Of a stretch of 64,000 nucleotides of DNA, positions 2 to 63,348 are shown piece after piece. A model generated the notes under the pieces. The model saw only the letters and a list, made by a program, of their open reading frames with translations, was not told the DNA's origin and did not search any database. The DNA comes from Hysterangium stoloniferum (taxonomy: Eukaryota > Basidiomycota > Agaricomycetes > Hysterangiales > Hysterangiaceae), in contig WHVD01000240.1 of NCBI GenBank assembly GCA_015178975.1, positions 1 to 64,000 of the forward strand, given 5' to 3'. How positions within the stretch are numbered: the first letter of the stretch is position 1; the number at the start of each line of letters is the position of its first letter. The position numbers and the translations under genes were made by a program.

Positions 2-535
2 GTGAGGGAGGAAAATCGAACGACTGGTGAAGCTCTTCTGTCTGAAGCTTACGTATCCATACTCGCCGCAGATTTCTTCGAAAAAGGAGACCGGCTGAGT
101 GCTCATCGGCAGGACCTTGAAGGCCTGACCGAGGACTACTGTCAGACTGGAGATTCTCACGAACAAATCAGTTCGAATTTGCTCTGTTCGCCTGGAGCTG
201 ATGTTGACACTTTCCCGTTTGATCCCGGGAACCCCCCGATTTACTACCGTACGAGAACTTCGGATTTGGAGGACAGCAACGATGATCCAGTATTGGATTC
301 CCCTTCGAAGCATGTTCCTTGCCGAAGTGAGCGCAGGAACGTAAGCTTGTCCCTGTGCAAGGAAAGTAAAGAGGCCTCGAATCCAATACCCTCGTCCCAG
401 TCATCTCTGATGAAGGAGGATACTACGATCCTTTATCGAAAACGGGATCCTCCCAGTGGTTACTCTAGCATTGGAGTTGCAGCGCTCCATGTTTTCGGTC
501 ATGTAGGAACTCCCCGATTCACCCGAACGCGTTAA
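2..535 (+). pseudogene. Element 1 Gag-Pol linker before protease (partial)
   Basis: This is the reading frame just upstream of the protease of a Ty3/gypsy chromovirus, cut by the window edge. It is acidic and low in complexity and resembles the equivalent part of element P (about 53517-54060): both carry an 'EKGDxL..HRQ..EGLTE' stretch and a '(K)RDPP.GYSSIG..ALHV' stretch. The frame is lost near 531-535, just before the KIRMDTG protease motif, which continues in another frame. The coding continuity is therefore broken. Confidence 0.75.
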
Positions 536-542
536 AATTCGA

Positions 543-2084: not shown

Positions 2085-3705
2085 CATAGTCATATTCTCT
2101 AAGAACTGGGGTGATCATTTGCTTCACCTGAATCAGGTGCTTGGCGCTATCGCTTCAGCCGGTATCACTCTCTCTCCCAAGAAATGTTTTATCGGATATA
2201 ATTCGATATTGTTATTGGGTCATAAAGTATCTAGGCTGGGTTTTTCAACCCACCAAGAAAAAGTTTGCGCTATATTGGAATTGGCCCCACCCACTAAGGT
2301 TTCTGATCTACAACGGTTCCTTGGAATGGTCCTTTACTTTTCAGCATATATACCATTTTATTCATGGATGGTGTCCCCTTTATTCTCGCTCCTAAAAAAG
2401 GGAACACCTTGGACGTGGACTGCTGAACATGTCCGAGCTTATGAGGATGTTAAAACCGCATTAGGATCAGCTCCAGTGCTGGGACATCCAGTTAGTGGGA
2501 TGCCCTACCGATTGTATACGGACACTTCGGATTTTGCCTTGGGTTGTTGCCTCCAACAAGTCCAGAAGATGGCTTTAGGAGATTTAGTGGACACTAAAAT
2601 CTATGCCCAAGCCAAATTGGCTTTTGACCGTGCGCAGGACGTGCCATCCTTTGTTCATTGGTACAAAACCAAACAGCCTGAGATTGAGTGGTCGGATTCA
2701 TGGGGATCCACTTTTGAGGCGACCGAAGTTACTGTTGAACGAGTCATTGCATATTGGAGTCGCATGCTGAAAAGCGCTGAGCGTAACTATTCTGCTACTG
2801 AACGGGAAGCATTAGCAGCAAAGGAGGGACTGGTCCACTTTCAACCTTTCATTGAAGGTGAACATGTCCTGCTCATTACGGACCATGCAGCTCTGCAATG
2901 GGCTAGATCTTACGAGAACACTAATCGTCGACTAGCCGCATGGGGGGCGATATACGCTGCATTTCCAGGTCTCGAGATTTTGCATCAAGCAGGGAGAGTT
3001 CACAGCAATGTGGATCCACTGTCCAGACTCCCTCGGGTACAAGCCTTCGTGAGCCCTATTAGAGATGATTTGCAGGCTATCACCTCGACTTCTCTGGACA
3101 AGAGTACTGAGGAAAAACTATGGACAGACGAACCCACTAAGAAAGCGGTCTTCTCTACCATACTCGATTCTATGGAGCCTTTTGGAGTAACTCAAAAGGT
3201 CCGACGGTCAGAATGGGATACTCATAACGCAATAAGGAACGACCAGGAAGACGAGTCCGACTTCGCATTGCGTCATCCTCAGCTACTAATCAGCATCGAG
3301 GAGGGATATATAAAGAAATTTCTAGAAGGTTATTCAAAGGACCCGGTTTTCAGGAATCTCTACGCTTTAGATACCCCTTCACCCAACGCGGTTGTTACTC
3401 CTTCTCACTACTTCATGGGAGCAAACCGACTCCTGTACTTTCACAACTCGGACTGGAAAAGTCAAGTCTGTGTACCCAGAACCATGATTAACTTGATTCT
3501 AAGGTTGGTGCATGATAACCCTTTTGAGGGAGCACACGCCGGAGGCCAGCGGTTGTTCAACCTGATGAAAGACTGGTTCTTTTGGCCAAGAATGCTACAA
3601 GATTGCGTGTCATACGCGCGTACCTGCGATATCTGCCAAAAAACCAAAGTCGATCGCACCGCTCATCAAGGAGCCCTCACGTACCTTTTAGGCCATTCGA
3701 GGTAG
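2030..3705 (+). pseudogene. Element 1 pol: RT palm, RNase H, integrase zinc domain
   Basis: This continues the pol frame after the break at about 2027. RT catalytic box YIDDIVIFSK is intact, followed by the thumb ('LLGHKVSRLGF', 'LQRFLGMVLYFSAYIPF'). RNase H starts at LYTDTSDFALGCCL and runs through 'ATEREALAAKEGL' and 'LLITDHAAL'. Near the end comes the HHCC zinc-binding domain of the integrase, H(x)H...CDICQK. The frame ends in nonsense at about 3675, where roughly 8 bp are missing compared with element P (about 63370-63400). Confidence 0.9.
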
Positions 3706-4796
3706 TTTCTATGGACTTAATCACTGGACTACCCGATTCAGGAAAGGATTCGTATTCCGCAGTCTTCATTGCCGTTGATAAATTGATGCGTTATGCTATT
3801 ACAATACCTACCTTTTCGAACCTTACAGCTGAAGGATTCGCACGAATATTTGTCAAACAGGTAGCGATCCCCTTCGGACTGCCCTCTCGAATAATCTGTG
3901 ACTGGGATAAGAGATGGACCTGCAGGTTTTGGCGGGAAGTCTGTAAGATCTATGGTACCACCCTTGTGGTATCTTCGGCTCATCATCCTCAAATGGATGG
4001 GCAAACGGAGAATATGAACACGACCATAGAACAGATGCTTCGAGCCTATTGTGCCTCTGCTAAGGAAAGCTGGTCCCAGTGGATTGAGGTAGTTGTTCAC
4101 ACATACAACTCGACTGTTCACAGTTCCACAAACTACGCCCCGGCCTTCTTATTAATGGGATACCTCCCAAGAGGAATGTCTCGAGTTCTAGGAGGTGACG
4201 AGCCCCTAGTTCCTACAGAACTATCAGACAGCCCTATGGCCGACCAATGGATCCTCGAGCTAGAAAATCATCGGCAGATGGCGGGGGATTCAATCACTCG
4301 AGCCCAAGAGATTCAAGCATGAGCGTATAACAAGAAGCAAAGACCTGTAGAAGATATCTCTGAGGGAGACTTTGTATTGGTGAACCCCCACTCCCTCGAA
4401 CTGGTGGAAGTCAAGGGAACGGGGAAGAAACTAATACAAAGACGGATTGGACCATTCGAGGTCCTTGAGAAATTGAACTCTCAAGTATTTAGGCTTAAGA
4501 TTCCCCCGGAGTATCCTATGCATCCAGTCATTAATTGGGATCATCTGCAGAAATATCAACCCTCTCCTTCCAAGCTAGGTCCGAGACCCCAACTTGAGAA
4601 CTTAAGAGAGTTGAAATCAGATCATGAAGAATATGAAGTCGAAGCTATTGTTGGACATAGGAAACAGCGAAATCGTCTGCTATTTAGGGTGTGCTGGAAA
4701 GGTTATGGACCTGAGGAGGATTCGTGGTTAAGCAGCACTGACCTTAGAAACGCTCCGGCACTTCTGAGGGCGTACAAGGTGCTGTTCAACATTTAA
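3676..4796 (+). pseudogene. Element 1 integrase core and chromodomain
   Basis: The integrase catalytic core starts at 'VPFRPFEVVSMDLITGLP' (first D), continues with 'IICDWDKRW' (second D) and 'DGQTENMNTTIEQML' (catalytic E), so the DDE triad is present. An in-frame TGA at 4320-4322 interrupts it. The same frame then stays open through the GPY/F-like module ('LIQRRIGPFEVLEKL') to a C-terminal chromodomain ('YEVEAIVGHRKQRN', 'VCWKGYGPEEDSWLSS') with the usual aromatic-cage residues. It ends at the TAA closing position 4796. The chromodomain identifies the element as a chromovirus; such domains are known to steer integration to modified histones. Confidence 0.9.
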
Positions 4797-23212: not shown

Positions 23213-26200
23213 ATGTCCTCCTCCACCACCCCCATCGCCATCATTGGTGTTTCCGCAGAGTTTCCCTCTGGTGAGCACGACCATAATCTCGACTACGCCG
23301 ACTATTGGCGGTTTCTCCTCCACAAGGGCGAGGCTTTCTCCCCAATCCCCTCCGACAGGTTCAATTACGAGGCGTGCGTGCCCAGATTTATTACCCCCTT
23401 ATTAATATTACTCATCTTTCCCAAATTTTCTTTCAAATTAGCTTCTCCCACCTAATTACTCCAAATTCTGGCGCATTTCTTACCCAACCAACTCTATTCG
23501 ACTCCCTCGAATTTGGTATCCCCCCAGCCGATGCGGCCGCCCTCCCCCTCGCCACTCGCAAGCTCATAGAGCATGCCTTTCTCGCTCTGAGGGATGCTGG
23601 AATCAATTACAGAGGTGCAGACGTCGGTGTGTACACCGCGGGTGTGGGGCACGACGCCAGTGTGCTCGGTGAAGCAGTAAGTCTGTCCCCTCACTCCCCT
23701 CCGCCCTACTCGTTCAATACTGATTCCCACCCCTCCAGGACCCTCATGCCCTCACCGGAACATTTGCTGCTATCCCCGCAACGATTGCCAACAGAGTCTC
23801 TTACCATCTCGACCTCCACGGCCCGTCTCTCCCCGTGGATACTGCCTGCTCATCCAGTCTTACCGCTACACATCTCGCAGTACAAGCGCTCCGAGCCGGA
23901 GAGTGCGAAAGCGCTGTCGTAGGAGGGGCACAGATCAACTTGCGGTGAGTATCACGAAAAAAAAGATCTCAACTTTGGTCGCGTCAAAACTTTGACCACG
24001 TGACTTACGCTTTTATATTGCATATAGCCTCAACGAATGGATCCAGTACTCTCAGTCCGGCGTGCTTTCCAAAGACGGTAAATGCAAGCCGTTTGATGCG
24101 AATGCTGATGGCTTTGCAAGGGGCGAAGGTGTCGCATGCATAATCCTTAAGCCACTTGACAAGGCCATCAAGGACGGGGATCGCGTTTATGCGACGGTGA
24201 GCCTTCGAGCTGCTATCTCTCTTGCCTCAATTCGTGCCATCGCGACTGATCTGTGCTTTGTTAGATCCTAGGCAGCGCCATCAATGCCGCGGGAAGTCAA
24301 GCCCCATTGAATGCCCCAGTTGCTGCCGCACAGCAGGCCGCCATGACTCGCGCTTACACGCGCGCTGGTAAGAATCCGATGGAAGTCGACTTTGTAGAGA
24401 TGCATGCTACCGGTAGGCTTACTTACATTCCTAGAGGTGATGGCTCATCTGTCAATTACCAGGCACCGCTGTTGGAGATCCCACGGAGGCTAACTGGGTC
24501 GGTGAGCAATTTAAGCGCGAAGATGGTGGGCCCCTCTTTGCGGGAAGTGTCAAGGGAAATCTTGGGTGTGTAAATTTTGATGTGTTCTGTTTTTTCTACT
24601 TACAGCTGGCTTTAGACATACCGAGATTACCGCTTTCCTGGCTTCTCTGCTCAAAGTTACGCACATGGTCGAGCATAATATCATTCCCCCTACGGCAAAC
24701 TTCTCAGTTCCTAACCGGAAGATCCATTGGGAGGAGTTTAACCTTCATGTCCCTTCCACTGCTCCCATTCCTTTCACACCACGAGCCCCCTCCGGAAAAG
24801 CCCTCATTTCTTTGTCGAGTTTCGGTATTGGTGGTGCCAACGGTCATGTTGTCCTCGAAGGTCCGGCACCTCGCTCCCAGAATGCTTTCGGACGATATGA
24901 CCGACATGGAGATTCCACGGACGCGATCTTGATCATGGCGGGTGGGTTGTCACCACGATCTGCGGGTGTCATGGCGGAGCAGATCAGGGAGTTGTTCATG
25001 AATGCGCCGAGGGATTCTCTTCCGTTGCTCGCAAAGCTTGCTGGGAGACAGGCGCGTCAGCTTACATGGCGATCATACGCTCTTTATTACCCTAACCTCG
25101 AAGTATCCAAAGCCCTTACCTTTTGCGAGGCACAACTCGCGCCTCGGACGCGTCCACCGCTCGCGTTCGTCTTCAGTGGACAGGGGCCACAACATGCCCT
25201 CATGGGACGCCAACTATTTTCCAAATATCCCGCTTTCAGGAAGAGCGTACACGAGTGTGACGAGGCGTACCGGTCCGTTATGGGTTTTTCCCTTGTGGAA
25301 AGCTCGGGGTTGTTCGTGGAGCCTCGCGATAACGCTACTTCATCCAAGCCCGCCGTTTCCAGCGAATGGACCGTCACCCTTCCCGCTCTCACCATCCTTC
25401 AAATCGCGTTATTCGACCTCCTTGCCAGCTTCGGCATTAAACCAGATGTAGTGCTCGGTCACAGTGCGGGAGAGACGGCTCTTCTCTATGCGTCCGGAGC
25501 TGGACCTAAGGAGATGGCAGTCGAAGTGGCCATTGCCCGTGCGAAGATGATGAGCGTCGCTGAGAGTGTCGGTGGTGGCATGGCCGCTGTAGCCTGTGGT
25601 GAGGTTGAGGCTCAGGGACTCATCGACGAGATCCTAGCCAAGGAAGGTATCTTCGAACAAGCAGAGCGGGAACAGAGCCTTGTGCTCGCCTGCTACAATT
25701 CCCCTGACGGTGTTAGTGTTGCAGGTCTCGTCGGTCTCGTTGACAAGCTTTGCGCGCTCGCAGAGAGTCGCGGTGTTCTTGCCCGCCGCCTCCGCATTCC
25801 AGTTCCTGTGCATTCTTACCTGATGGACGTGTGCAAAGATCAGTGCGAGAGTCGTGTCGGGGAAGTCTTCGCGCGGTTCCCTCAAGCGGGGAAGCCGACG
25901 ACTACGATGTACTCCACAGTTACAGGCCTCAAGTGGGATGAACCGTTCTCCGTCGATTACTTCTGGCGCAATGCACGACAGGCTGTTCTTTTCAACCAGG
26001 TCACGACGCAGCTCGTGGATGAACATCCCAATATGTGTTATGTCGAAATCTCCCCTCATCCCGTCCTTTCTTCATATATATCCTCAGCTGGTGTTGACGG
26101 CTCACGCATCACATGTCCGTCTCGCCGCCCTGCCAAGTCGGGCGAGTTCCTTGAAGGTGCGGCTTTCCTGGAATCGCTTGGCCGACTCGCTATGAACGGA

Positions 26201-29200
26201 TATGATGTTGACTTTAACGCTCTAAATAACCACCCCGAGTGGGATCCTAAAGTCAAGCTCCCCGCATATCCCTTCAGCAAGAAGGACGTTCCATTCCATG
26301 CCGACACCCCCTCCTTCCACCGACTGTTACTTGCTCGCAACGGTCCTCTCAATCACCCGCGTCTGCGCATCAACGCCAAGACTCACCCGCTACTTGCAGG
26401 CCATGTCGTCAATTCCGAGCCGATCATGCCTGCAGCTGGCTTCATCGAGATGGCGTTGGAGTTTGGCGCAAGGGTACTTTCTGATGTTGAGTTTATGGCG
26501 GCGCTGCCGTTGTCGGCGGAGGTACCCTCTACGGTCGAGGTGGCCTTAGATGGTGCGAAATGGAGTGTCAAAACTTCATCTGCGCTGGGACATGGGTCTG
26601 ATAAGAGTTGGGCGCATAGGGTGTGTACTTGCATGTCTGTTTTGCCTTGCCATCATTTACTAAATCGTCTTCACTCTAGGGCTCACCGGACTTCGATCGT
26701 TTACACTCACGCGGCTTGCTCACGTTCAACACTGACAACACTGACGATGAGCCTTTGGACCTTGCTGCGATCCAAACGCGTTGCAAGCGGGTCTGCCGCA
26801 TTGAAGACCTTTACGAACATGGTTTCAAGGGCTTTGCTGACTACAGTTCCGACTTCAGACGTATAACTTACGCTGTCCAGGGCGAGGATGAAGTCTTTGT
26901 CACGCTTCGTGGTGCGATTGATTTGGCCGAGTGCGTTCTGCTTTTAAATACCGTTATACCGTATCACTAAAACGTCCACAGCTGTGATAAGTACCGGTTT
27001 GACCCGGTTATCCTCGACGCCGTCTTTCATGGATGCATGTTCTTCATCATGGAGCATGAGCAGGTCATTCTGGACTATGAGACGCGCGATTATTTCTTGC
27101 CTTCGCGAGCAGCTCGTGTCGTCCTTCATGACGCTCTGGCGCGAGCCAGCCTGCCTGAACAGATCGCGGCACATTTTGTGTTAAGGGATTGGACTCCTGG
27201 TATGTATCTTGTCGTTGGTACTTCTGGCGCTCTTCGCTCACTGATTCTCATAGCGGGGGTATCCGTTGATATTTCGATCACCGACATCGCTGGGGAACGT
27301 CTTTGCACCATTCGAGGTTTCGAGATGACTCGCCATTCGAATTCTATCCACAAGGCTGTCGAGAAGCGTTTCCAACTTGAGTGGCAACCTGTCTCTATCC
27401 CATTGCAACCCGCGAATGAGTTGCACCACATTCGTGAGCCCAAGCACAACACTCGGGATCTATGGATGACCCTCGATGCGCTTGCAATCGAAACAATCAA
27501 AAAGACGTTAGCTGGTTCGGTTGTACCTGGTGTTGAAGTGAGTTCGACTTCTATTCTATGCCTAGTGTCAACCTTTTAACAACTCTATTAGCGCCATCGT
27601 CAACGTTACTGGGAATTTGCAAAAGACACTGCGATGAAGGCGATGGATAAAGATGCCCTTGAACCTGAGCATATTGCTGCTTTGCGTCAGGCCTATCCCT
27701 CCTACTTCGATGTCACTGATCGCGTTGCTAAAGTCCACAGGGATATTTTCACATCGTCAACAGTATGTATACCACCTCTCTAGGCGTTTGATTACATTTC
27801 TTATCCGTTTCTGCAGGCCACTGTTCAGGCATTGTACTCCACTGTTGAAATCATGCAAGACTTCTATGGCGCTCACAATACTGTCATCCCATCGTGCCAG
27901 GAAAGTGCCGTGATCTTCCGTAATGTACTCAAGGAACTCGCTGCAAGTGGGAAAAAGGTCATTCGTGTCCTTGAGGTCGGGTGTGGAACTGGCATGTTAA
28001 CCCAACGCCTCGTTGATGTACTTCCCGAGTTCCCAGAACTCATCGTTGAATATGTTGCCACCGATATCTCCCACAGTCTAGCTATGCAAGCCGCCCAGCG
28101 CTTTTCGCACCCTTACATGCGCGCCGCAGCTTATGATCTCACGAAGACCCTGGAGGAACAAGGTATCACCCCCGCTTCATTTGATGTGGTCAGCGCCCTT
28201 CATGTTTTGCACGCAACAAGTGACCTTGCACAAACTATGGGCTCTATCTATGATTTGCTCGTACCGGGAGGTTATGTTTTGACTGTTGACTTTGACGGAG
28301 ATGCTTGGCAGACCGGAGTTCCTGGAACTATCTGGTATGACTTTATCTTCGGTGGATTCCAAGAATGGTACGAGTGTCCTTCTGTCTTCAGTTTCGTAGT
28401 TGGACGCTAATTCTACGTGTTAGGTTTGACTTCGGCGAAGATCGGACATCGCATTGCACCATATCACTTGGACAATGGCGCCGACTTCTGCAGGGTAGTG
28501 GCTTTAACTGTGTGACATTTTCGAGTAGTCATCCCGACGAAGACCACTCACTCGTTTTCCTTGCTCAAAAGGCTGGTGCTGAGCATTACGTTCTTCCGAT
28601 CACGGAAAACCGGCCGCCGTCTTCTGTATCCCATAGCGACACCGTGTTCAACTCTTCATCTGGCTCCATTTCGAAAGACTTCTCTCCTGTGCAAGTCATA
28701 GAAGAGTTCGTGTATCTCCCCGATCCCCTCTTCAATTACTCGCGCGGCCAAGAGATGAAACTTCGTGATGAGCTGGCTGGATTGGATGCGAGCGATTCAT
28801 TGTGTGTTTGGATTGTGGCTACAGATGGACCCGACGGCGACGCAGCTCGTGGTCTCACTCGGACGTTAGGGAAAGAACTTCCTGCATGGTCGATCCATCT
28901 GGTTATCTGCGACGCGTCCTGGTCAATGCAAAAACGGCGTGCTGCCATAGCCAAGCTTCAGGACAACCCCGCTATCGAACCCGAAGTACGGCTTGATATC
29001 AACGGTGCAATTCACGTTCCCAGGGTCGTTCCTCTTCCTTCCCCTTCCTTGGAAGCACCGTTCGAGTCAGACAAGCATTGGGTCACTGGCGATGATAAGG
29101 TCTCACTAGCAGCTCTCCCCGCCCTTGGACCTTTCGATATTGCGGTGGAAGTGTCTCATTGGTCGTCGCTGAACAAAGATTCCCCCCAAGCTTTCATAGC

Positions 29201-31077
29201 GACGGTGTCGAACAAAGGTACCTCCGACTTTGCAACTGGCGATTGGGTGATGGGTCTCACCGATGCCCCATTCTCCAACCGATTGGTTGTGCATGGTGGT
29301 TCCGTTGTTCCCTGCCAGCCCAACGACTCTCGCGTTCTTCCAGATGCGGCTGGGCTGGCGAGCGCTGTTCTTGCACTGGGGCCCGGTACACTACGTCGTA
29401 TGGGCCGTCTTCAGGCCATACAGCACGTTCTCGTTACTAATGCGGATACACTCATTGGTCAGGCTGCAGCTCGACTATACGTACATCTGGGCCTCGATGT
29501 TTTTTGCATTGCAGAAGGCGATGCAGAGGCCTTGGCGAAGTCCATCCAAGTTCCTGTGGGTCGAGTCTCGGTCGCCTCAAATGCACTTTGGGTCGCCCGT
29601 CAGCGCTGCCGTTATGATGTCGTTCTTTCAGGCGCTCGGAGTAAGCCTGATGTTCAAGCTGTCACTCAGCTCTGTACACCCCAAGGCATTCTACATCTCT
29701 GGAACAGCGAGTCTGATGGTTTACTTTCGAACCTGAAGCGGGATCCATGGCTTGCGGCATTTGCTTTGGAGGTTGCCCTACAGAATATTCCTAATGATTT
29801 TTGTAGCTACACATCCCCTGTCGCCATTGCCGATGTTGCCCCAGTAGCAGATGGGACGCTTGTTGCAACGCAATCGTCACTCTTTGACCCGCGCAAAACG
29901 TATATATTAGTGGGTGGTATCGGTGGTATGGGTATCCAGATGGCACTTTGGATGTATGAGGTATGTTTAGGTTTTGGACTGTTTTTGTTCGATCTTCTAA
30001 CTGGGAACAAGAATGGCGCTAGGGATATCGTCTTGACTTCACGGCGCGGCCGTGAGTCGTTGCGTCGCACTAATCAGACAGCCGGGCTGCGAACGGTTCA
30101 ATACTTAGAACGACGTCCGGACCTTTCTCTCTCATTGGAAGCAGTCGACGCGACTGATTATGAGGCGACGGCTGCACTCATCAAGTCCCTGCAAAAGCCT
30201 ATCGGCGGTTGTTTCCTAATGTCTCTCGTCCTCTCCGATAAGTCTTTTGCCAACCAGACTGAGGACGACTTTGAGAAGGTTTTCGATGCGAAGACCACCG
30301 CCTTCCAGAATTTGTCACATGCCTTGGATATCAATACCCTCGATTTCTTTGTCTCGTTCTCCTCTGTGGCAGCCCTCTTTGGTAGTGCTGGACAGTCTAA
30401 CTATACCAGGTGTGTTGTGATGTATACCTATTGCTAGTTGTCCACTGAATCTGTTTACAGTGCTTCATCTGCCCTGGAGGGCATGACAAATGGCTACCGC
30501 AACGCATTTTCACTTGTCGTCCCTGGAATCACGGATAGCGGCTGGCTAGTTCGTGACCAGAGAGGGGGAGAAAATTCTCGCTCAAGCCATCTACTGGAGT
30601 GGGGCATGTCTACCAGAGGTATGTGTCTCAGCTAACCTCGGAATAATCACTAACATCGCCACAGAATTATGCGATTGTATCGCTGATGGCATTAGAAAAC
30701 TCCAGACCGGGTCATTCCATCACTACGTTCCGAATTTAAACTGGAACCTCGTCCGCCAAGACATGGGTGCTCTCCCTTCATTCCAACATCTTTGCGTTGC
30801 GGAACGAACTGAGGCAGCTACCCTTGAGGACGGGGAGGAGGACTCTAATCTGGAGGAGTTGGTTCGCACCGCACTTAATATTCCTGCCGAAGATTTCTCT
30901 CCCCACGTGCCATTTACAGCCTATGGACTTGATTCCCTGGTTGCCGTGCGGCTTTCCGCTGCTATCCGCGCCAACACTGGTCTTAAAGTCAGCCAGTTAC
31001 AGCTCCTTGCAGACATGACGCTTGAAGATCTCGAGCGGAGACTAGAGGACATTTTACTGGACGCTGATTTGGAATAA
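23213..31077 (+). CDS. Highly reducing-type iterative type I polyketide synthase
   Basis: Sixteen exons joined in frame: 23213-23373, 23442-23676, 23739-23944, 24028-24196, 24265-24412, 24463-24565, 24616-26620, 26680-26930, 26982-27199, 27254-27537, 27592-27762, 27817-28367, 28424-29960, 30012-30409, 30461-30618, 30665-31077; about 2,335 residues. Domains: KS about 7-420 with VDTACSSS (Cys), VEMHATGT (His) and GNLGHTE (His); AT about 520-830 with GHSAGE; DH about 920-1200 with HPLLAGHVV and [12 protein letters not shown]-methyltransferase about 1330-1520 with LEVGCGTGM; an ER-like segment about 1730-1980 lacking the usual GGVG nucleotide loop; KR from about 1990 with [12 protein letters not shown] with LDSL (Ser about 2288). 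No thioesterase or release domain follows. The enzyme would extend malonyl units, methylate and partly reduce them. The product is unknown. No tailoring genes lie beside it. Confidence 0.9.
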
Positions 31078-53033: not shown

Positions 53034-54764
53034 GAGCGTTATCGGTTTCAGAAACCCAGAGTCATGATCGCCGAGCAAGACGAGTCGGATCCTTGGCATG
53101 AGGAAGAGCACTCTGGAGAATTCAATCTCACTAATCGAGGCCACGTCCTCCTCAGTGAACTCGAGGATAAAACCATCCCCAGGAGATCGAATGCTAAGCA
53201 GGGTAAGAAACATGGCAAGTTCTTTTTCGAACGAAGTGACAAGAAAAGCATCGCCAAACCTCCGAAGGAGTGTTGGATTTGTGGGAGTTTAGAGCATTTC
53301 AAGATCGACTGCCCCCATGTGGGCAGGATGTCGCACTATGTCTCTATTAACAAGTGCTCCACGCAGAACCCAATGGAGGAGGCGGAGGATCAAAGGGCTT
53401 ATGAAACGGTTTATGGATTAAGTGTACAGGGACAAGTACATAACATTGATAAGGAATCGATTTTCATTTCTGTCTACCTTCCTCAGCCAGAGGACAGCAT
53501 TGTTTCAGACGTGAAAGCATCCTCGAATGAGAACGAGACATCGCAAGTTTATGTTTCTATATCAGACCATGATTTTCTTGAGAAAGGAGACTGGCTAGAC
53601 GTTCATCGTCAGAACCGTGAAGGTCTGACTGAGACGAGAGTTTTATCGCAACCTGAACCTCCCACCATTGAGGAAATCGTCGACGAGGACACATTTGCGA
53701 ACCAATCTAAGGAAATAAGTCAGACCTACATTATAGAAGACCCCTCTGAGTCAGAGGGATCGGAGGAGGAGAGCTTCCCCTTCGACCCAGGGCAATTACC
53801 CGACTTAATTCCTTGCGAGGAGTCAGACTCTGAAGCGGACAACTCTATTTCGAACACCACTCCCAAGGTACCTAACGGTAGACGTATCAGGAGGAACGTC
53901 AAACTGGCTGCAAGAAAAGAAAGCAAAAGACCTAGAGTTCAATACCCTCGATCCAGTCGACTTATGAAAGAGGATTCAACTATTATCTATTGCAGAAGGG
54001 ACCCTCCGGATGGATATTCCAGTATTGGGATTTCAGCATTACACGTCTACGGATGCGTAGGGAATTCAGAAGCCTCAAATCCTATTAAAATCAGGCTGGA
54101 TGCTGGAGCTGACCTCTCCTTAATCTCGGAGGATTTCTATAAGGAACTAGAGGACCGTCCTAAACTCAAGCAAGGACTCAAGCTGTGCCTCGTACAACTT
54201 ACTGGTAATGCCAAAGTATTAGGATACGTCAACGTCCCCATTTATCTTGAGGACGACACCGGTATACTCCTTAAATTTACCGCCAAAATGTACATTGTCC
54301 GAGGTATGACCATCCCGATCCTTCTTGGAGAAGACTTTCACGTGAACTATGAGATCGGGATACTGCGAGACCAACCGCTGGGTTCCAGATTGATCTTGCC
54401 TGGGAGAGCAGGATCTATCCCAGCCAGTTCTTCCAAGGAGCCACAGCCTTTAACCTTTTCGATTAGCAAGATCCCCCTTGAGGAGCTAGCCAATGACTCA
54501 CCTGAATTGACTTCCAAACCAGACAAAGGAGTGTGTACTGAAAGAGTCACACGGGCCTTACAAGATTGTACTATAGAACCGGAATCAGCTCGATTAGTAC
54601 CAATCTTTGTAGGAGATCTTATTGGTGACCAATGGATAGTCGAGGGAGTTGTCTTGCAGAATGACGATGGGAGTATACTAGCTGCTCCCACCACCGCCAT
54701 CTCTAGGGAACGTGCCATGATACCTCTCACTAATCCCTCTCTGATGCCAAGAATCATCAGATGA
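53034..54764 (+). pseudogene. Element P zinc knuckle and aspartic protease
   Basis: This continues the gag frame after the TGA at 53031. A CCHC knuckle, CWICGSLEHFKIDC, is followed by an acidic linker and the retropepsin region 'KIRLDAGADLSLIS'. The catalytic triplet reads DAG instead of DTG/DSG, so the protease is probably dead. The frame ends at TGA 54762-54764; the aligned codon of element 1 (1209-1211) is CGA, and the frame continues beyond the stop with 'GETVGLIHDANKWA'. Confidence 0.88.
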
Positions 54765-55104
54765 GGGGAAACCGTTGGATTAATTCATGACGCGAACAAA
54801 TGGGCCCAGACTCCTAGATCTTCAACTGAGAAAGCATCGATGCAGTCAACGGCAACCAAGATCGCCCATCTCGTCGAGAGTCTATCAAAAATAGAAGAGG
54901 AGCGTGTCCTTAATCCTCAATCCTCCGGACTGCCCCCAGAACGGGAACTCACAGATGATTTTGACCCGGCAGGTCCTAAAACGTCAGAGGTTGCCACCAC
55001 GGAAACGTTTCGTGCGGAAGATCTGCATAAGCTGGTTAACTTAGGACCTGACATCCCTACCGATGTCTCCTCCCGCTTGGAGTCGGTATTAACTAAGAAT
55101 GTCC

Positions 55105-55348
55105 TGTTAGATTATATAATACCAACCATTGTTCCAACTGGGACCATATGGTGTACAGCTCTGAGTTCAGTGTGTATATGATCTAATAGGAATGGCACTT
55201 AGGGTTATATCCTTAAGTACAGTGTAAGACCAAACCTATCCAAGGTCAGATGGTGTAGTGGTTAACACCTTCATTATGTAATCGAGAGATCCTGGGTTCA
55301 ATCCCCAGTCTGGCTATTCATTTTCTACATTACTTATGTTTTCTAACA
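55105..55348 (+). repeat. Left LTR of the miniature element
   Basis: 244 bp, appears identical by eye to 55517-55760. It contains the tRNA-like sequence at 55244-55316. Confidence 0.9.
55244..55316 (+). tRNA. tRNA-like sequence in left LTR (anticodon arm decayed)
   Basis: Exactly 73 nt. Acceptor GGTCAGA pairs with TCTGGCT (two wobbles). T8 is present. D stem GTGT/ACAC flanks the loop AGTGGTTA. T stem CTGGG/CCCAG flanks TTCAATC, giving a canonical B box. The anticodon stem TTCAT/TCGAG pairs poorly and position 33 is A, not T, so a decoding tRNA is unlikely. A TTTT run (55321-55324), a Pol III stop, lies five bases downstream. Confidence 0.55.
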
Positions 55349-55516
55349 TGGTAGCAACTCCAAGGTTAACTTGGTTTGGCTGTATTTGTGTGTATGGTAT
55401 AGTGGACAAGTCTGGACGAAAAAGAGCCAGAGAGGACCTATACTGGCATATGATATAGTTAATGCCCAAGATCGAACCTGGAGTGTAGAATGAACAATGC
55501 TGGCATTAAGGGGGTG

Positions 55517-55760
55517 TGTTAGATTATATAATACCAACCATTGTTCCAACTGGGACCATATGGTGTACAGCTCTGAGTTCAGTGTGTATATGATCTAATA
55601 GGAATGGCACTTAGGGTTATATCCTTAAGTACAGTGTAAGACCAAACCTATCCAAGGTCAGATGGTGTAGTGGTTAACACCTTCATTATGTAATCGAGAG
55701 ATCCTGGGTTCAATCCCCAGTCTGGCTATTCATTTTCTACATTACTTATGTTTTCTAACA
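55517..55760 (+). repeat. Right LTR of the miniature element
   Basis: 244 bp, appears identical to the left LTR. It is preceded by the purine tract aagggggtg. Confidence 0.9.
55656..55728 (+). tRNA. tRNA-like sequence in right LTR (anticodon arm decayed)
   Basis: Second copy of the sequence at 55244-55316, 412 bp downstream. Same arms, same decayed anticodon arm and the same downstream TTTT. Confidence 0.55.
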
Positions 55761-57871
55761 TGTCCTAGCCTTCGGAGTAGACGGGCGACTGGGACAAGTG
55801 GATGTCAAGGTCAATGTCCCATTGAAAGAGGGCGCGCAACCTATTTCAATGTCAATGTTCCCAACCTCCCCAGCTAATAGGAAAGTCATTGATGAACAAA
55901 TGGATACTTGGTTCCAACAGGGAGTAATTGAACCGTCCAAGAGTCCTTGGGGGGCACCAGCCTTTGTCGTCTATCGCAATGGGAAACCACGAGTAGTGAT
56001 CGACTATAGAAAGTTGAACAGTCTAACAGTTCCCGACGAATTCCCACTGCCACGCCAGTCGGAAATCATGCAAGCGCTTTCGGGCTCCAACATCTTATCT
56101 TCCTTCGATGCACTAGCTGGTTTTACCCAACTTGAAATGTTAGAGGAAGACAAGCCGAAGACCGCCTTCAGATCCCATCGAGGACTGTGGCAATTCAGGA
56201 GAATGCCCTTTGGACTTTGTAATGGACCTTCTATATTCCAAAGGGTTATGCAAACCGTACTTACACCTTACTTATGGATATTCTGCCTGGTTTATATTGA
56301 CAACATCGTGATCTTTTCTAAGACATGGGACGATCATCTAGAACATTTAGATCAGGTTTTACAAGCCATAATTGCTGCGGGAATCACTCTCTCGCCCAAA
56401 AAGTGCTATGTGGGGTATCATTCGATTCTACTACTAGGACATAAGGTGTCTAGACTCGGCTTTTTGACCCATCAAGAAAAGGTCGCCGCTATATTAGAAT
56501 TCTCGACACCCTCTAAGATAGCAGATCTTCAACGTTTTCTAGGAATGGTTTTGTACTTCTCCGCATACATACCATTTTACTCCTGGACAGTCACTCCACT
56601 TTTCAACCTCTTGAAGAAAGGAGTTCGTTGGAATTGGGATTCTGAACATGCCCGAGCTTTTGAGGACATCAAGGTTGCGTTGAGCTCAGCTCCAGTACTC
56701 GGACACCCCACGAGCGGTATGCCTTATCGGTTATACACAGACGCTTCGGACGTTGCGCTAGGATGTTGTCTCCAACAAATACAGAAAATGATGCTTAAAG
56801 ACCTTAAGGATATGAAAATTTATGCCCAAGCACGAGCAGCCTTCAATCAATCACGAGACATGCCCATCTTTGTTACTCGTTATAAAACCAAGGAGCCAGA
56901 ATTCACCTGGACAGATTCCTGGGCTGCAGATTTTGACGACACCAGTGTCACGGTCGAACACGTTATCGCCTATTGGAGCCGTATGCTCAAGAAAGCAGAA
57001 TGTAACTATTCAGCCACAGAGTGAGAAGCGTTAGCCGCTAAAGAAGGATTAGTCCATTTCCAGCCCTTTATCGAAGGCGAACATATCCTTCTGATCACTG
57101 ACCATGCGGCATTACAATGGGCCAGATCTTACGAGAATACTAATCATCGACTGGCCGCATGGGGGGCGGTATATGCTGCATACCCCGGTCTGGAAATCCT
57201 ACATAGAGCAGGACAAATACATAGCAATGTTGACCCACTGTCCAGACTTCCTCGAGTACCAGACTATGCTAGCCCCACAAGAGACGACCTTTTACCGATC
57301 GTAGTGGATTCTTATAACCGGAATGACAATGAGACATTATGGGAGAACAAACCAGCGGAAAAAGCTGTCTTTCTCACTCGTCACGAGTTAGTTGAACCAG
57401 TCGGAACCATGGAAGAGGTCCCCCAAACGAAATGGGACTTGCACAATCTCCCCAGAAACGATGAAACCGATGAAGCGAATTTTACTCTCTCGAATCCACA
57501 ATTGCTTATAGAGATCGACGAAAATTACGCTAAGGAACTTCGCGATGGATACCAGAAGGATCCCGCCTTCAGAAATCATTACGCCACCGATCCCATTTCT
57601 CCAAACATGGTAACTACTCCTTTGCATTATTTCATCGGCAAGAATAAGTTATTGTTCTTTCGAGATTCGGACTGGAAAAGTTGAATCTGTGTTCCTAGCA
57701 GCATGACAACAACCATACTCAAGCTGATACATGATAATCCTTTCAAAGGAGCTCATGCAGGCGGCCACAGGCTCTTTAATCTGATGAAAGACCGTTTCTT
57801 CTGGCCGAGGATGTTGCATGACTGCGTGGTGTACGCTCGCAGCTGCGACATATGCCAGAAAACTAAAATTG

Positions 57872-58176
57872 TGTTGAAACAGTTGAATAACTCTTGACAA
57901 ACACCCTGTGAGTGTGAGGAAAGTAAACACTTAATGTATTCAACTGTGAAATAACTACATACCTGTGAGTGTGAGGAAAGTAAACACTAAGGAGACTTTC
58001 CCACACCCACAGCGGAGTATACTACAGGGTGCTTACCTAAGCACCTACACATCAGTTACCTTACTAGGTAACTCACTCAATACTGCACCTACAGTGCTGG
58101 GAAAAATACTACAAATATCAGAAAAATATAGGGAACATCATAGACTATGTAAGAGCTGTAATATCATACTCTAACA
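57872..58176 (-). repeat. 3' LTR of the copia element
   Basis: 305 bp, appears identical to 63044-63348. It contains a 26-bp direct repeat (ctgtgagtgtgaggaaagta plus following bases) at about 57906 and 57963. Confidence 0.92.
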
Positions 58177-58191
58177 CTCCCACCTGATGAG
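58177..58191 (-). promoter_or_regulatory. Polypurine tract of the copia element
   Basis: Read on the minus strand, ctcatcaggtgggag directly precedes the TGTTAGAG start of the 3' LTR. Confidence 0.7.
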
Positions 58192-58197
58192 ACAGCT

Positions 58198-61100
58198 CTA
58201 TGCTAGTCCCAGTAGTTTTCGTAAGTATTCTACCTTTGGCTTAGCCAATGGTTTTGTCAATAAATCAGCAGGCATCTCTGAAGTAGGGAGATGAACAACT
58301 TTGATCTTCCCACTATCAACTTCCTGCCTTAACCAATATGTTCTCAAATCCAGATGCTTCATACGGCCATGATGTTCAGGATCTCTGGCAACTGCAATAG
58401 AAGATTGGTTGTCAAGATACAAAGTGGATGCAGTCTTTTGAGGATATCCCAATTCCTCAAATAAGTTTCGCAACCATAGCACTTCCTGACCAGCTGACAC
58501 TGCTGCAATATACTCTGCTTCAGTAGTAGAGAGAGTTACAATAGTCTGGAGTTTGCTCTGCCAGCTAATGGCTCCAGTACCCATCTTAACCACATATGCA
58601 CCAGTAGATTTTCCAGTTGACTTATCACCTCCATGGTCAGCATCTGAATAAGACACAAACAATTCCCTGTCATTACTAGGGCCAAAGGTCAAGCCCAAGT
58701 CAAGGGTGCCTTTGAGATATCGAAAGAGATGTTGTACTGCTAGCCAATGAGCCTTTCCTGGATTGTGATTAAATCTGGCTAATACTCCAACAGTATAGGC
58801 AATGTCTGGACGAGTGGCAACAGCCAAATACATAAGAGAACCAACAGCATGGATGTATGGAATGTCCTTCATGTATGCAATCTCTTCAGGAGACACTGGA
58901 GCCTGGTCTTTACTCAATTTTGAGTTAGGTATCATAGGTGTACCAATGGGATTGCAGTCAGCAAGACCATAACGCTGTAACATGTCCAAGATGTATTGAC
59001 GCTGTGATAGAGTAATAGTACGCTTTGTCCTGTCTCTTTCAATGCCAACACCTAACAAGTAAGAAGTAGGACCAAGATCATGCAATTTGAAGTGGCTCTT
59101 TAGATCATCTTTGAGCTTTTTGATAGCCTCCTTGGATTTAGATGCAATAGTCATGTCATCTACAAATACTGGTATAATGACTTTGACATCACCCTTTTGG
59201 AAGACCCAAATGCTATGATCGCATAGCACTTGTTTGAAACCCAAACTGAGCAGGACAGCATTCAACTTCTTGTGCCAGATACGAGGTGACTGGCGTAAAC
59301 CATATAGTCCTTTCAGAAGAAGTAAGAACTCATCACGAGCACCTTGGTGAAAACCTTCAGGCTGCTGCAAGTATACTTCCTCTTCAAGTTCACCATTCAA
59401 GAATGCAGAGGAGATATCTACACTCTCAAGTTCCATGTCCTCCAGTGCAGCCAATGCTAGGACAGCACGCAAAGTGGCCCATTTGGCAGTAGGAGCAAAG
59501 GTATCAGTGAAGTCAAACCCTGGTCGTTGTGCATAGCCTTTTGCAACAAGACGAGCTTTGAACTTGTCAATTGACCCATCCTTCTTACGCTTGATCACAA
59601 ACACCCAACGAGAGCCAATAGCTTTACGACCCTCAGGTAGTTTAGCAAGGCGAAAAGTGCCATTTTCAAGCAGGGATTGCATTTCTGCATATGCAGCGTC
59701 ATACCACTTGTCAGCATCAGGACTTTGTAAGGCCTCTTTGAGAGTTCTCGGTGCATCATCATGAGCACTGGCCTTGTAGGCAAACTCAAAGGCTTCATCC
59801 ACACCAATGTAAAGATCTCCCTCACTGGCAGCTAGGGCTTCTTCCTCAGACTCAACTGGAGGAGGAGAATGTAGTGGAGAATCCTCTGCCTCATCACTGG
59901 ACTCAACTACAGGAGTAGATTCTCTATAGTTGTGGATGTGAGCAGGGTCAACTTGCCAGAAACGCTTAGGAGGAACTCTGTTTCTGGGTGGATTGCGACG
60001 TGGTTGAGGAGGAGGACTCGGTGAACGTTCAGAATGTTCAGAATTAGAATCAGAGTTGGAACTAGGACCAGGAGGCAAAGCATTATTCTGACCATCTCCC
60101 ACTGGATTTGGTTCCTGTGGAGCTCCCATCTGATTAGGCTGGGCTCCCACCTGAATAGACCTAGAGGGTCCAGGAATAAACAAATCAATAAATTGTGGAG
60201 TATCAGGAAGAACATCAGGAGCAGTAGGAGTAGAAGGTATGGCAGGTTTAGACAAGCCTGGTAAGACTCTCTCATCAAAGACAGCATTATTACTGATAAT
60301 AGTCTTCTTAGTCAAGGGATTGTAAAACATCCAACCCTTATAATCTGGAGGATATCCAATAAAGACACATTTCTGTGTATGAGAGCCAAGTCCAATACGT
60401 TGATCCTTCTGTACATGCACATAAGCAGTACAGCCAAATACCCTAAGATGTGATACTTCTGGTTTCCTACTATGCCAAACAGTATAAGGCACAGAATGCT
60501 TAAGAGCAGTGGTAGGTGAGCAGTTGCGCACATGAGTAATGGCAATGACAGCATGTCCCCAGAATGAGGGAGGGAGGTGGGATTCAGCCATAATTGAAGT
60601 AGCCCCTTCTTCCAATGTTCTGTTGAAGCGTTCAGCAACCCCATTCTGATGTGGTTCATTCCGCACAGTATGCTGCCGGCTGATGCCAGCAGTGGAAAGG
60701 AAGGTATCAAACTCCTTAGACATATATTCTCCACCCTTGTCATCTCTGAATATCTTGATCTTCTGACCAAGCAAGTTCTCCACTTTAGCCTTATATTGCT
60801 TAAATGCCTGAAAGGCATCACTCTTATTTTTGAGTAATGCAATCGAAGCATAGCGTGAGGCATCATCAATGAAAGTGATCCAGTAGCGAAACCCTTCCAC
60901 AGTTTGTGTAGGCAAGGGACCATGAACATCACTGTGAATGAGTGCAAGTGGTTTAGTATAGCGTGTTGTTGCTATTTTATTAATCACTCTGTTCTGTTTT
61001 CCAGCCAAACAAGGTTCACAAATAGGATCAGGAGACGTGTGAGAGTCAATCTTTATCCCACCAACCAAATCACCTTTGAGGAGCTTCTGGATATCGGCAT

Positions 61101-62442
61101 GATTGAGATGATTAAAGCGACGATGCCAAAGTGTGGAGTCCAAGGGACAGGTTGTAACAAGACCTGCATAATCCGTCATAGGTACCGTCATTCCATCCAA
61201 ATAGGCCTGGTTATGTTCATTGACTGTGGCAGTGAAACGCAAGACCTTTCTCAAATAGAAAGACATGGTGGAATGAAAGATAGAGACACGGAAATTCTTT
61301 CTCTTTGTCAAATACAAGACGGAGAGGAGGTTACTTGTGAGATGGGGAACATGGAGAACCCTTTCAAACTCTATTATTACATTTCCATTCCCTTTAGGCT
61401 TAAACCGCACTGCTCCTATCCCTGCAGACATAACTATTTGTCCATTTGCAACTTGGATAGGTGTTTGAAACGGGGTATAACTTGAAAACCAATGACGATG
61501 GGGAGTCATGTGCGAAGAAGCACCTGTGTCAGCAGTCCAGTCAGAACTAGCATTGACAAGGAGAGCACAAGATGGATCGGTAGAGTCAGGGATAGAAACA
61601 CTTGCATTTCCAGCACTCTCTGGTTTCTTCTCCTCTGATACCTTGTCAGACGCATTAGCTTTGTCAGCCTTAGCAGTCTTTCTTTCTTTATACTCCTTTT
61701 TCTTCTGCTCAACTTTGGCCTTTGCCTGTTTCTGTGCATTTGCATACTCGTAACAATTGTCTTGGGTGTGGGTGGAACCATTGCAGAATGTGCAAGGAAC
61801 TTTACCAGAAGTGTTGGAAGTCTTTGACACAATTTTGTTCGCCGTCTCTAAACTTCTGGCAGACTGCAAACTCTCTTGTGATGCAAAGTGAGTTTTGACA
61901 TCAGAGAATGTGATAGCAGTATTCATCATTAAAGATGAAGTCCACACAGAGTCAGATTCAGGCAGAGAACGAAGTAAAGTGAGAGCAGCAAGCTCATCAT
62001 CCAGCATGGCAAGAGTGTACCCCTTTGGACGCAAGTTCTGGACACGTGCACAAACCTTGTCAACACGACTCATTAATGAAGTTAGAGATTCATCAGGTTC
62101 CTTCCGAATATTAAAGAGGTCATTGTAGGCACTAAAACGAACTGCAGGGAGTTGTTTATTATGTGCCTTGTCAATTTTAGACCACATATCATCAGGACCA
62201 TCATCAATGTCAACATGGGTGCGCTGTGTAGGTCCAAGAGAGCGCCATATGATACCAGCTGCTTTATTGGAGCGCTCCAACCAGGCAGACTGTAAACTAG
62301 TCTCACTAGGTTGTTTTTCTTTGCCAGTGGCAATAGAGAGACAGTTCTCCATACGCAAAAGACCAATTACGTCATGTCTCCAATCCTCATAATTATTCTC
62401 TCCCAATATGACACTACGTTTGTAAGTATCACTGGATGCCAT
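58198..62442 (-). CDS. Ty1/copia Gag-Pol polyprotein
   Basis: One frame of 1,414 residues with no stop. Order: Gag (about 1-210); CCHC knuckle CTFCNGSTHTQDNC (about 215-230); protease TADTGASSH (about 305); GAG-pre-integrase HHCC (LWHRRFNHLNHADIQ...CEPC); integrase DDE with 'IHSDVHGPLP' (about 505), 'IFRDDKGGEY' (about 569) and 'NGVAERFNRTLEE' (about 602); RT with 'RLVAKGYAQRPGFDFTDTFA', 'SVDISSAFLNGE' and the catalytic box FVDDM (about 1095); RNase H from 'YSDADHGGDKSTGKS' (about 1268), with 'TEAEYIAA' and a closing 'ADLLTKPL'. Integrase before RT is the copia order. All catalytic residues I can check are present. It ends 22 bp from the 3' LTR. Confidence 0.95.
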   Translation of the reverse strand: MASSDTYKRSVILGENNYEDWRHDVIGLLRMENCLSIATGKEKQPSETSLQSAWLERSNKAAGIIWRSLGPTQRTHVDIDDGPDDMWSKIDKAHNKQLPAVRFSAYNDLFNIRKEPDESLTSLMSRVDKVCARVQNLRPKGYTLAMLDDELAALTLLRSLPESDSVWTSSLMMNTAITFSDVKTHFASQESLQSARSLETANKIVSKTSNTSGKVPCTFCNGSTHTQDNCYEYANAQKQAKAKVEQKKKEYKERKTAKADKANASDKVSEEKKPESAGNASVSIPDSTDPSCALLVNASSDWTADTGASSHMTPHRHWFSSYTPFQTPIQVANGQIVMSAGIGAVRFKPKGNGNVIIEFERVLHVPHLTSNLLSVLYLTKRKNFRVSIFHSTMSFYLRKVLRFTATVNEHNQAYLDGMTVPMTDYAGLVTTCPLDSTLWHRRFNHLNHADIQKLLKGDLVGGIKIDSHTSPDPICEPCLAGKQNRVINKIATTRYTKPLALIHSDVHGPLPTQTVEGFRYWITFIDDASRYASIALLKNKSDAFQAFKQYKAKVENLLGQKIKIFRDDKGGEYMSKEFDTFLSTAGISRQHTVRNEPHQNGVAERFNRTLEEGATSIMAESHLPPSFWGHAVIAITHVRNCSPTTALKHSVPYTVWHSRKPEVSHLRVFGCTAYVHVQKDQRIGLGSHTQKCVFIGYPPDYKGWMFYNPLTKKTIISNNAVFDERVLPGLSKPAIPSTPTAPDVLPDTPQFIDLFIPGPSRSIQVGAQPNQMGAPQEPNPVGDGQNNALPPGPSSNSDSNSEHSERSPSPPPQPRRNPPRNRVPPKRFWQVDPAHIHNYRESTPVVESSDEAEDSPLHSPPPVESEEEALAASEGDLYIGVDEAFEFAYKASAHDDAPRTLKEALQSPDADKWYDAAYAEMQSLLENGTFRLAKLPEGRKAIGSRWVFVIKRKKDGSIDKFKARLVAKGYAQRPGFDFTDTFAPTAKWATLRAVLALAALEDMELESVDISSAFLNGELEEEVYLQQPEGFHQGARDEFLLLLKGLYGLRQSPRIWHKKLNAVLLSLGFKQVLCDHSIWVFQKGDVKVIIPVFVDDMTIASKSKEAIKKLKDDLKSHFKLHDLGPTSYLLGVGIERDRTKRTITLSQRQYILDMLQRYGLADCNPIGTPMIPNSKLSKDQAPVSPEEIAYMKDIPYIHAVGSLMYLAVATRPDIAYTVGVLARFNHNPGKAHWLAVQHLFRYLKGTLDLGLTFGPSNDRELFVSYSDADHGGDKSTGKSTGAYVVKMGTGAISWQSKLQTIVTLSTTEAEYIAAVSAGQEVLWLRNLFEELGYPQKTASTLYLDNQSSIAVARDPEHHGRMKHLDLRTYWLRQEVDSGKIKVVHLPTSEMPADLLTKPLAKPKVEYLRKLLGLA

Positions 62443-63030
62443 GACACGTCAATATCCACCAAGAATTTAACTTAAAAAGAACTAAGTAATTGGACTCGCA
62501 GTTGTAACACCGCCTTGCTCAACAGGGTTACCGTGATATTGCAAGGAAGGTAAAAACAAAGGCCCACTGAAGAGCACAATGCCAACAGTTCAAGTTCAAT
62601 GTATCTAAAAGACCGTGTTAAAAAGGGAAAATGACGTGGCACAGACCCAGATGATACTGTGAAGTGCTTGAGGTGTGAGGGAAGAGTGTGACTGGAGAGA
62701 GAGGTGACAGGGTGTGACAGGGTGAGTCACAAGGGTGATAAAAATGAAGTTGCCCAAAAAAGGGAAATTGAGCGACGACAAGCGATTTGGAGCGTGGGAA
62801 TATATTTCCTTTTATGGACACGGGCGCCTAAATGGGCGAAAAATGCGCACAATCACAGGTGTGAGATGTGAGTCCAAAAAGCGACCAAATCAGGCCAAAA
62901 TCCAAGGAGATATAACCAAAATAAAATCCAAACGCAATGTAGAGTGTTTTGGACAAGTAGAAGTTGTCAGAAAAGATGTGCAAAGTGATGGATTGCGCAG
63001 ATGACAACTGGATGTACCGGTTTAGAAGCC
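62443..63030 (-). other. Leader of the copia element
   Basis: About 590 bp between primer site and ATG, non-coding on the element's sense strand. The GC-poor stretch with CACA-rich parts probably holds packaging and translation signals, none of which I can define. Confidence 0.5.
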
Positions 63031-63043
63031 GGGGCCCATAACC
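63031..63043 (-). promoter_or_regulatory. Primer binding site of the copia element (half-tRNA iMet type)
   Basis: In element sense ggttatgggcccc directly follows the 5' LTR. It complements the anticodon arm GGGCCCATAACC of an initiator Met tRNA (CAT anticodon) rather than a tRNA 3' end. This is the half-tRNA priming known for Drosophila copia. Confidence 0.75.
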
Positions 63044-63348
63044 TGTTGAAACAGTTGAATAACTCTTGACAAACACCCTGTGAGTGTGAGGAAAGTAAAC
63101 ACTTAATGTATTCAACTGTGAAATAACTACATACCTGTGAGTGTGAGGAAAGTAAACACTAAGGAGACTTTCCCACACCCACAGCGGAGTATACTACAGG
63201 GTGCTTACCTAAGCACCTACACATCAGTTACCTTACTAGGTAACTCACTCAATACTGCACCTACAGTGCTGGGAAAAATACTACAAATATCAGAAAAATA
63301 TAGGGAACATCATAGACTATGTAAGAGCTGTAATATCATACTCTAACA
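63044..63348 (-). repeat. 5' LTR of the copia element
   Basis: 305 bp, appears identical to 57872-58176. In element sense it starts TGTTAGAG and ends TTTCAACA. Confidence 0.92.

Follow-up and report, generated by a model that had tools for sequence, protein, structure and literature searches.

Among miniature LTR retrotransposons (TRIMs), the closest described systems to the element considered here are Helenus and Cassandra. Helenus, named by Kojima 2024 (PMC10886601), comprises TRIMs with tRNA-derived LTRs that occur in fungi, animals and a plant, and the screening limit for these TRIMs was 1000 bp. Pol III transcription of Helenus was suggested in that paper and stated there as not validated, and the paper argues for Copia helpers and, in fungi, for 5-bp target site duplications (TSDs). 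Both types of primer site on the initiator tRNA (iMet), as well as switches between them, are reported for fungal Helenus, and a SINE2 origin of the tRNA part was suggested (PMC10886601). Cassandra, which is found in plants, carries a 5S rRNA rather than a tRNA in its LTRs, and transcripts that read through the LTRs have been reported (PMC7215508). SINE2 elements, described in part in PMC10886601, likewise have a tRNA-derived part with A and B boxes, but they lack LTRs, a primer-binding site and a purine tract, all of which are present in the element described below, and are copied by non-LTR retrotransposons.

The window, meaning the whole stretch of 64,000 nucleotides that was analysed (positions 1 to 64,000 of Hysterangium stoloniferum contig WHVD01000240.1), contains at 55105-55760 an element of 656 bp which is almost certainly a Helenus-type TRIM. 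A first-pass annotation of this DNA described a 656-bp element with LTRs, TG..CA ends, a 5-bp TSD, a primer site, a purine tract and no protein, all of which the sequence bears out. The same annotation regarded the element as a tRNA-based parallel to Cassandra, which is correct, yet such a parallel had already been published as Helenus (PMC10886601). Cassandra and the present group both carry in their LTRs the gene of a small RNA together with Pol III promoter and terminator signals, which are putative in the present group, and both form tandem LTR-internal-LTR arrays (PMC7215508). With Helenus, as far as the parts of the paper drawn on here go, the group shares a length below 1 kb, tRNA-derived LTR sequence, a primer-binding site and purine tract, the 5-bp TSD, several families per genome, primer sites matching the iMet 3' end or anticodon loop, a suggested Copia-type helper, and a tRNA that (in most Helenus) is not usable (PMC10886601). 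The element is a new member of published Helenus, and the tested features of fungal Helenus are found here with two exceptions: its A box lacks TRGCY, which most Helenus have and which is not defining, and no helper with the primer site of its own family was found among the places read. A search of the open-licence PMC literature for TRIMp3 gave Kojima 2024 as the only paper bearing on transposons. In the genome, four families were found whose LTRs contain a tRNA-like part towards their 3' end: A (that of the window copy), B, C and D. The features of the locus are as follows.

55100-55104, no strand: 5' TSD TGTCC, read from the sequence
55105-55348, plus strand: 5' LTR, 244 bp, TGTTA..TAACA, identical to the 3' LTR
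55244-55316, plus strand: tRNA-like sequence of the 5' LTR (ARAGORN; Rfam RF00005, 42.4 bits)
55251-55262, plus strand: A-box-like motif TGGTGTAGTGGT, read from the sequence
55295-55305, plus strand: B-box-like motif GGTTCAATCCC, read from the sequence
55321-55324, plus strand: T4 of the 5' LTR, a possible weak Pol III terminator (sequence; 50/50 family-A rows)
55349-55516, plus strand: internal region, 168 bp, no protein
55349-55362, plus strand: primer-binding site TGGTAGCAACTCCA, 14 nt, complement of the host tRNA-iMet 3' end with CCA
55377-55465, plus strand: segment common to family B (internal) and family C (within the LTR)
55465-55484, plus strand: block common to family D, like the iMet T arm and 3' acceptor, sense strand
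55508-55516, plus strand: purine tract AAGGGGGTG, read from the sequence
55517-55760, plus strand: 3' LTR, identical to the 5' LTR
55656-55728, plus strand: tRNA-like sequence of the 3' LTR (ARAGORN; Rfam RF00005, 42.4 bits)
55733-55736, plus strand: T4 of the 3' LTR, read from the sequence
55761-55765, no strand: 3' TSD TGTCC, read from the sequence
57872-63348, minus strand: Copia element separate from the TRIM, a possible helper for the group (LTRs, TSD, primer-site match to family B)

The two 244-bp LTRs do not differ at any position, have TG..CA ends within the borders TGTTA..TAACA in both copies, and carry TATATAA close to the LTR start. The TRIM sits within a Gypsy-like pol region at 53034-57684 (plus strand) and splits it; the frame directly 3' of the TRIM (55759-57021) has RVT_1 and RNase H domain matches, and the frame 5' of the TRIM has no Pfam match. 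A second Gypsy-like pol region at 507-4322 (plus strand) was identified by eye, as was everything in the Gypsy-like regions beyond the RVT_1 match for 55759-57021.

The presence of a tRNA-shaped sequence in each LTR, claimed previously from the letters alone, is agreed upon by ARAGORN, which finds a tRNA in each LTR of the window copy, and by Rfam, where RF00005 scores 42.4 bits per LTR, well over its cut-off of 29 bits, with E 1.2e-5 for the whole window. At gathering scores, Rfam has no more than these two matches in the window, both of them to tRNA and none to 5S rRNA. The tRNA of the window copy is not usable, as ARAGORN assigns it no type and a four-base anticodon. The window copy has both GGTTC (box B) and TGG, which fits the YGG of box A, and the longer motifs TGGTGTAGTGGT and GGTTCAATCCC are presumed to be A-box-like and B-box-like from the place such motifs usually occupy. 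Box B GGTTC is kept in 14 of 15 rows chosen from families A-D. The box A motif TRGCY is absent from families A and B, which have TGGTG there and in this differ from most Helenus, and families C and D mostly have TAGCT.

Recognition of the tRNA-like part by the search programs extends beyond the window copy. Among 12 further loci given to Rfam, eight exceed the tRNA cut-off, so that families A, B, C and D are all represented when the window copy is included, and the four without a match are all of family C. ARAGORN reports a tRNA in three of the 16 loci given to it, naming the family-B tRNA-like part tRNA-Ile, and in none of the nine family-C loci. With RNAfold, a single copy each of A and B folds into a cloverleaf, the C and D rows tried do not, and none of its z-scores lies below -2.18. 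No close parent tRNA of the tRNA-like parts was seen among the 18 loci compared, which come from an incomplete host tRNA set of at least 62 matches (63 scored of 5384 candidates). L095, which comes out best in the comparison with possible source tRNAs, belongs to a family-C LTR, and L097 matches only in part. Clusters of many tRNA-like matches, 94-95 nt long and apparently intron-bearing, were seen for L098, L099 and contigs C112 and C68, and the four of these matches that ARAGORN calls have the anticodon tta. A search for further families through the common box B GGTTCGA gave two matches, both of which, by our own reading, resemble host intron-bearing tRNA clusters.

The anticodon arm had been described as ruined. 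This holds for the window copy, for which RNAfold gives no anticodon stem, but not for every copy, as the family-A locus L006 folds with a four-pair anticodon stem. LTR position 169 is A in the window copy and in 11 of 32 family-A loci and G in the majority, including L006, which scores 49.0 bits in Rfam versus 42.4 for the window copy. The anticodon-arm defect of the window copy is partly decay in that copy. In family A the frequent anticodon-arm changes are C to T or G to A and lie at two CG steps, one of which is changed in the window copy; such changes would fit CpG decay.

The 656-bp query has at least 43 matches in the genome, at least 14 of them full-length (40 scored of 419 candidates), with L018 counted as a partial copy outside the 14. 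Exact 5-bp TSDs flank 13 of the 14 full-length family-A copies and 11 of 13 solo copies. The LTR pairs of the full-length copies are identical in seven cases, differ at 1 to 6 positions in four and differ by an indel in three (14 pairs); such LTR identity within copies is taken here to indicate recent movement of family A. A 20-base piece of the T arm has 470 genome matches with at most two mismatches, compared with 0 for the reversed control, and the places fetched belong to families A and B. The first-pass annotation had pointed to other copies of the LTR as the place to look for the tRNA-like part. It is present in the full-length A, B and D LTRs examined, but it is partial or degraded in truncated or family-C copies: the first LTR of L104 and one LTR of L059, both truncated, retain a portion of it, and many old family-C copies have it in a degraded state, with L034 lacking it altogether.

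The sister families differ from family A in size and organization. The LTRs of family B are 128 bp long, of which only 34 nt precede the tRNA-like part, and its internal region measures about 155 bp. Some of its copies form LTR-internal-LTR-internal-LTR arrays, namely L046, L055 and L057 and, with shorter spacing, L043. Family C is seen as solo LTRs of about 245 bp (L037) and has matching 5-bp flanks in L037 and L039. Its LTRs (among L031-L039) enclose a segment, about 90 bp long, which in A and B lies in the internal region, and after this segment comes another tRNA-like part. In family D the LTRs measure about 206-210 bp and the internal region 109 bp (L119). All 40 scored places of 153 candidates matched family D, and of the 12 loci fetched nine have exact 5-bp flanking repeats as read by eye (L106-L111, L113, L114 and L116), these being absent in L105, L112 and L115. 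The A LTR aligns to family B at about positions 136-225 only. Taken over LTR plus internal region, A matches B at positions 136-356 (71%) and D at 172-263 (70%) and 359-384 (96%), and family A accordingly looks like a mosaic of two sister families, B and D. The internal regions of A and D (55465-55484; L119) also contain about 20 bases that resemble, in sense orientation, the T arm and 3' acceptor of iMet (p = 0.0005 for A and 0.0035 for D, 2000 shuffles each; antisense 0.33 and 0.13). A copying accident into the primer tRNA sequence may have produced this block, and it is the sole explanation offered.

A tRNA receives its CCA end after transcription. The primer-binding site TGGTAGCAACTCCA is complementary to the last 14 nt of host tRNA-iMet with this CCA included. 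Three places in the host match an initiator-tRNA pattern, and the TGGAGTTGCTA with which the gene in L100 finishes is the end of all three. The L100 gene has no intron, in which it differs from the primer tRNA genes with introns in the fungi of PMC10886601. Families A and D have the iMet 3'-end primer site in common, and the family-B primer site GGTTATGGGCCCCGC is complementary to the iMet anticodon region, so that two regions of iMet appear as primer sites within one group.

A candidate for the autonomous helper of the group lies 2.1 kb from the TRIM. This Copia element (57872-63348) has identical 305-bp LTRs and the TSD CAATT. It differs from the TRIMs in encoding a polyprotein, a single frame of 1416 aa in which gag, integrase and reverse-transcriptase domains are recognised, and in having no tRNA match in its LTRs in the Rfam search of the window. 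Its primer site corresponds to the iMet anticodon region. The first 14 bases of this site, GGTTATGGGCCCCG, are those of family B, the two agree across the LTR end and primer-binding site (30 nt, 87% identical, E 3e-5), and it resembles the TRIM group in purine tract, LTR ends and 5-bp TSD. These likenesses suggest that the window Copia may be a helper of the group. A primer-binding site common to an autonomous Copia is thus seen for family B, but none was found for A at the places read. The search with the family-A primer site gave 256 places with at most two mismatches (reversed control 85), and no Copia helper with that site was found at the six non-A places read among the 100 listed. Judged by eye, L117 and L118 hold Gypsy-type pol coding sequence and L120 holds Copia-type coding sequence on the other strand, and all three are regarded as chance matches; L103 is not recognisable, and L104 and L119 are family D.

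Slower change in the arms of the tRNA-like part than in the flanking LTR, a point that the first-pass annotation proposed to check, is seen in family A but not in B or D. Outside the anticodon arm, the arms of family A have 1 variable site in 56, versus 21 in 171 for the rest of the LTR (p = 0.019). An earlier count for the whole tRNA-like part of family A gave 7/73 versus 26/139 for the upstream LTR (p = 0.11). The arms do not differ from the rest in family B (10/55 versus 11/56, p = 1) or family D (8/52 versus 29/126, p = 0.31; 11 variable-loop sites set aside), and the pooled difference for the three families tested is not significant (19/163 versus 61/353, p = 0.12). Family-B rows obtained with the T-arm pattern were left out of this test because they had been chosen by that piece. 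The anticodon arm varies more (16/51) than both the other arms (19/163, p = 0.002) and the rest of the LTR (p = 0.022). Measured by the conditions under which the first-pass annotation would have called the tRNA-like part a chance capture, absence from other copies and arms decaying like their flanks, the outcome is mixed.

Between families, pairing within the stems is kept. In the acceptor and T stems of the 15 chosen rows from A-D, 98.9% of cells are paired, a fraction that none of 500 shuffles reached, and sliding the partners by one column lowers it to 50.0 and 53.6%. In the same rows, 30 cells are changed on both sides, where shuffles average 10.9, and covariation scores 0.603, where shuffles give 0.306 (0/500 as high in either case). 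Two further measures are not above shuffles: the number of pairs with a change on both sides (6 versus 4.7, 68/500 as high) and the number of further pair types (12 versus 12.7, 447/500 as high). Acceptor pairs are kept in 154/154 cases in A, 127/133 in B, 44/49 in C and 95/98 in D, counts that lean upward because the script picks the best-fitting arms. From family to family the sequences of the acceptor and T stems change but their pairing is kept, which is more than a promoter alone would need. The changes on both sides may be inherited, as the families may descend from different tRNAs.

The tRNA-like sequence is followed by a T4 tract, beginning on the fifth base 3' of its end in both LTRs as previously noted. 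A T4 near this position is present in 50/50 family-A rows. Family B has it in 29 of 50 rows and TTAT in the other 21 (3/20 rows from unbiased searches and 18/30 from the T-arm pattern); all of the latter retain another T4 towards the end of the LTR, and a near or far T4 is present in 50/50. Within the tail, T runs reach a length of 4 and no more in 49 of 50 A rows (the remaining row has 6), in 14 of 15 D rows and in 8 of 12 C rows, the last including loci fetched twice. Near the end of host tRNA loci the longest run is T5 or more in 14 of 19 and T4 in 5 of 19, a set made up of 16 tRNA loci and three iMet genes from which L095 and L097 were dropped (a family-C LTR and a partial match) and which does not include L098 and L099. 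A T4 by itself has practically no terminator function in vitro in budding yeast, where a neighbouring RNA stem turns it into a moderate Pol III terminator (PMC9278858). The first-pass annotation took the T4 as an argument against a promoter role, which does not follow, as T4 is very weak in yeast (PMC9278858) and the near T4 is missing from many B rows. By analogy, a folded acceptor stem adjoining T4 is how a leaky terminator would be expected to look. No discussion of the LTR-tail T4 or of stem covariation was seen in the portions of the Helenus account used here (PMC10886601).

A mechanism that joins these features has a slight balance of probability in its favour. The protein-less TRIM would be copied by the proteins of an autonomous element, probably a Copia. 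Pol III would start at the tRNA-like sequence of the 5' LTR, and the T4 beside the folded acceptor stem would stop part of the polymerases, giving a by-product of about 80 nt. The remaining polymerases would continue to the T4 of the 3' LTR and terminate there, and their RNA of about 490 nt would have the tRNA-like sequence repeated at both ends as the R region. Reverse transcription would be primed by tRNA-iMet, with R serving strand transfer. On this view the tRNA-like part would be both the promoter and half of a leaky terminator, which would explain why the acceptor stem is kept. The narrower proposal that the LTR tRNA-like fold is a promoter and a tuned leaky terminator, a single signal that Pol III passes in the 5' LTR and obeys in the 3' LTR, is put forward tentatively. 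The whole mechanism draws support from the anatomy, the TSDs, the occurrence of four families and their Rfam tRNA matches, the stem pairing, the T4, the longer T runs of most host tRNA loci, the weakness of T4 in budding yeast and the help it gets from a stem, the Cassandra-like arrays of family B and the match between the Copia and B at LTR end and primer-binding site. Counted against it are the pooled arm comparison and the earlier family-A count (p = 0.12 and 0.11), the two covariation measures that do not exceed shuffles, the possible descent of the families from different tRNAs, the loss of the near T4 in 21/50 B rows and the presence of T4 in 5/19 host tRNA loci, together with the family-C loci missed by Rfam and ARAGORN, the RNAfold limits and the lack of a family-A Copia among the places read.

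It is possible, though we think it rather doubtful, that in this Helenus-type TRIM the tRNA-like part acts solely as a promoter, which is what Kojima proposed, with the T4 and the paired acceptor stem being remnants of a captured tRNA or SINE. The near-constant box B of the chosen rows, arms that within B and D are not significantly slower than their flanks, and the SINE2 origin suggested in PMC10886601 are all consistent with this. The pairing of the acceptor and T stems despite sequence differences between families argues against it, as does a T4 that is kept in A, B and most D rows.

Alternatively, Pol II could make the genomic RNA from a start upstream in the LTR, and the tRNA-like part could be a separate small-RNA gene or a tRNA mimic with a role in processing, export or chromatin, as the first-pass annotation suggested. 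This is unlikely. The T4 located inside the 5' LTR and the paired stems would suit such an arrangement, and the TATATAA with which the LTR nearly begins might be a TATA box, but the LTR of family B, with 34 nt ahead of its tRNA-like part, would leave little room for a Pol II promoter, and no sign of a separate function for the tRNA-like part, such as export, boundary or priming, was found. Chance capture of a tRNA fragment without a role, with which arms that do not decay significantly more slowly in B and D would agree, is highly improbable given the same LTR place in four families, mostly with T4 and paired stems, the hundreds of matches of the T-arm piece and the report of such elements in many other genomes (PMC10886601).

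If the proposed Pol III mechanism is correct, a tuned leaky terminator would be the Pol III answer to the problem that retroviruses face with their duplicated poly(A) site. Beyond what is described for Helenus in the parts of PMC10886601 drawn on here, the new observations are the stem pairing across families, the T4 that is mostly kept, the mosaic of sister families and the anticodon-arm decay in the window copy. The genome offers a natural comparison, as all family-A rows have the T4 whereas the near T4 of family B is present in some rows and missing from others, the stems covary between families, and the window itself holds a Copia with the B primer site. Hundreds of LTR copies of this kind can inflate tRNA gene counts, as Kojima notes for rust fungi (PMC10886601). 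Elsewhere in the window, 24581-30437 (plus strand) holds pieces of a polyketide synthase with acyltransferase, dehydratase, methyltransferase and ketoreductase domains.
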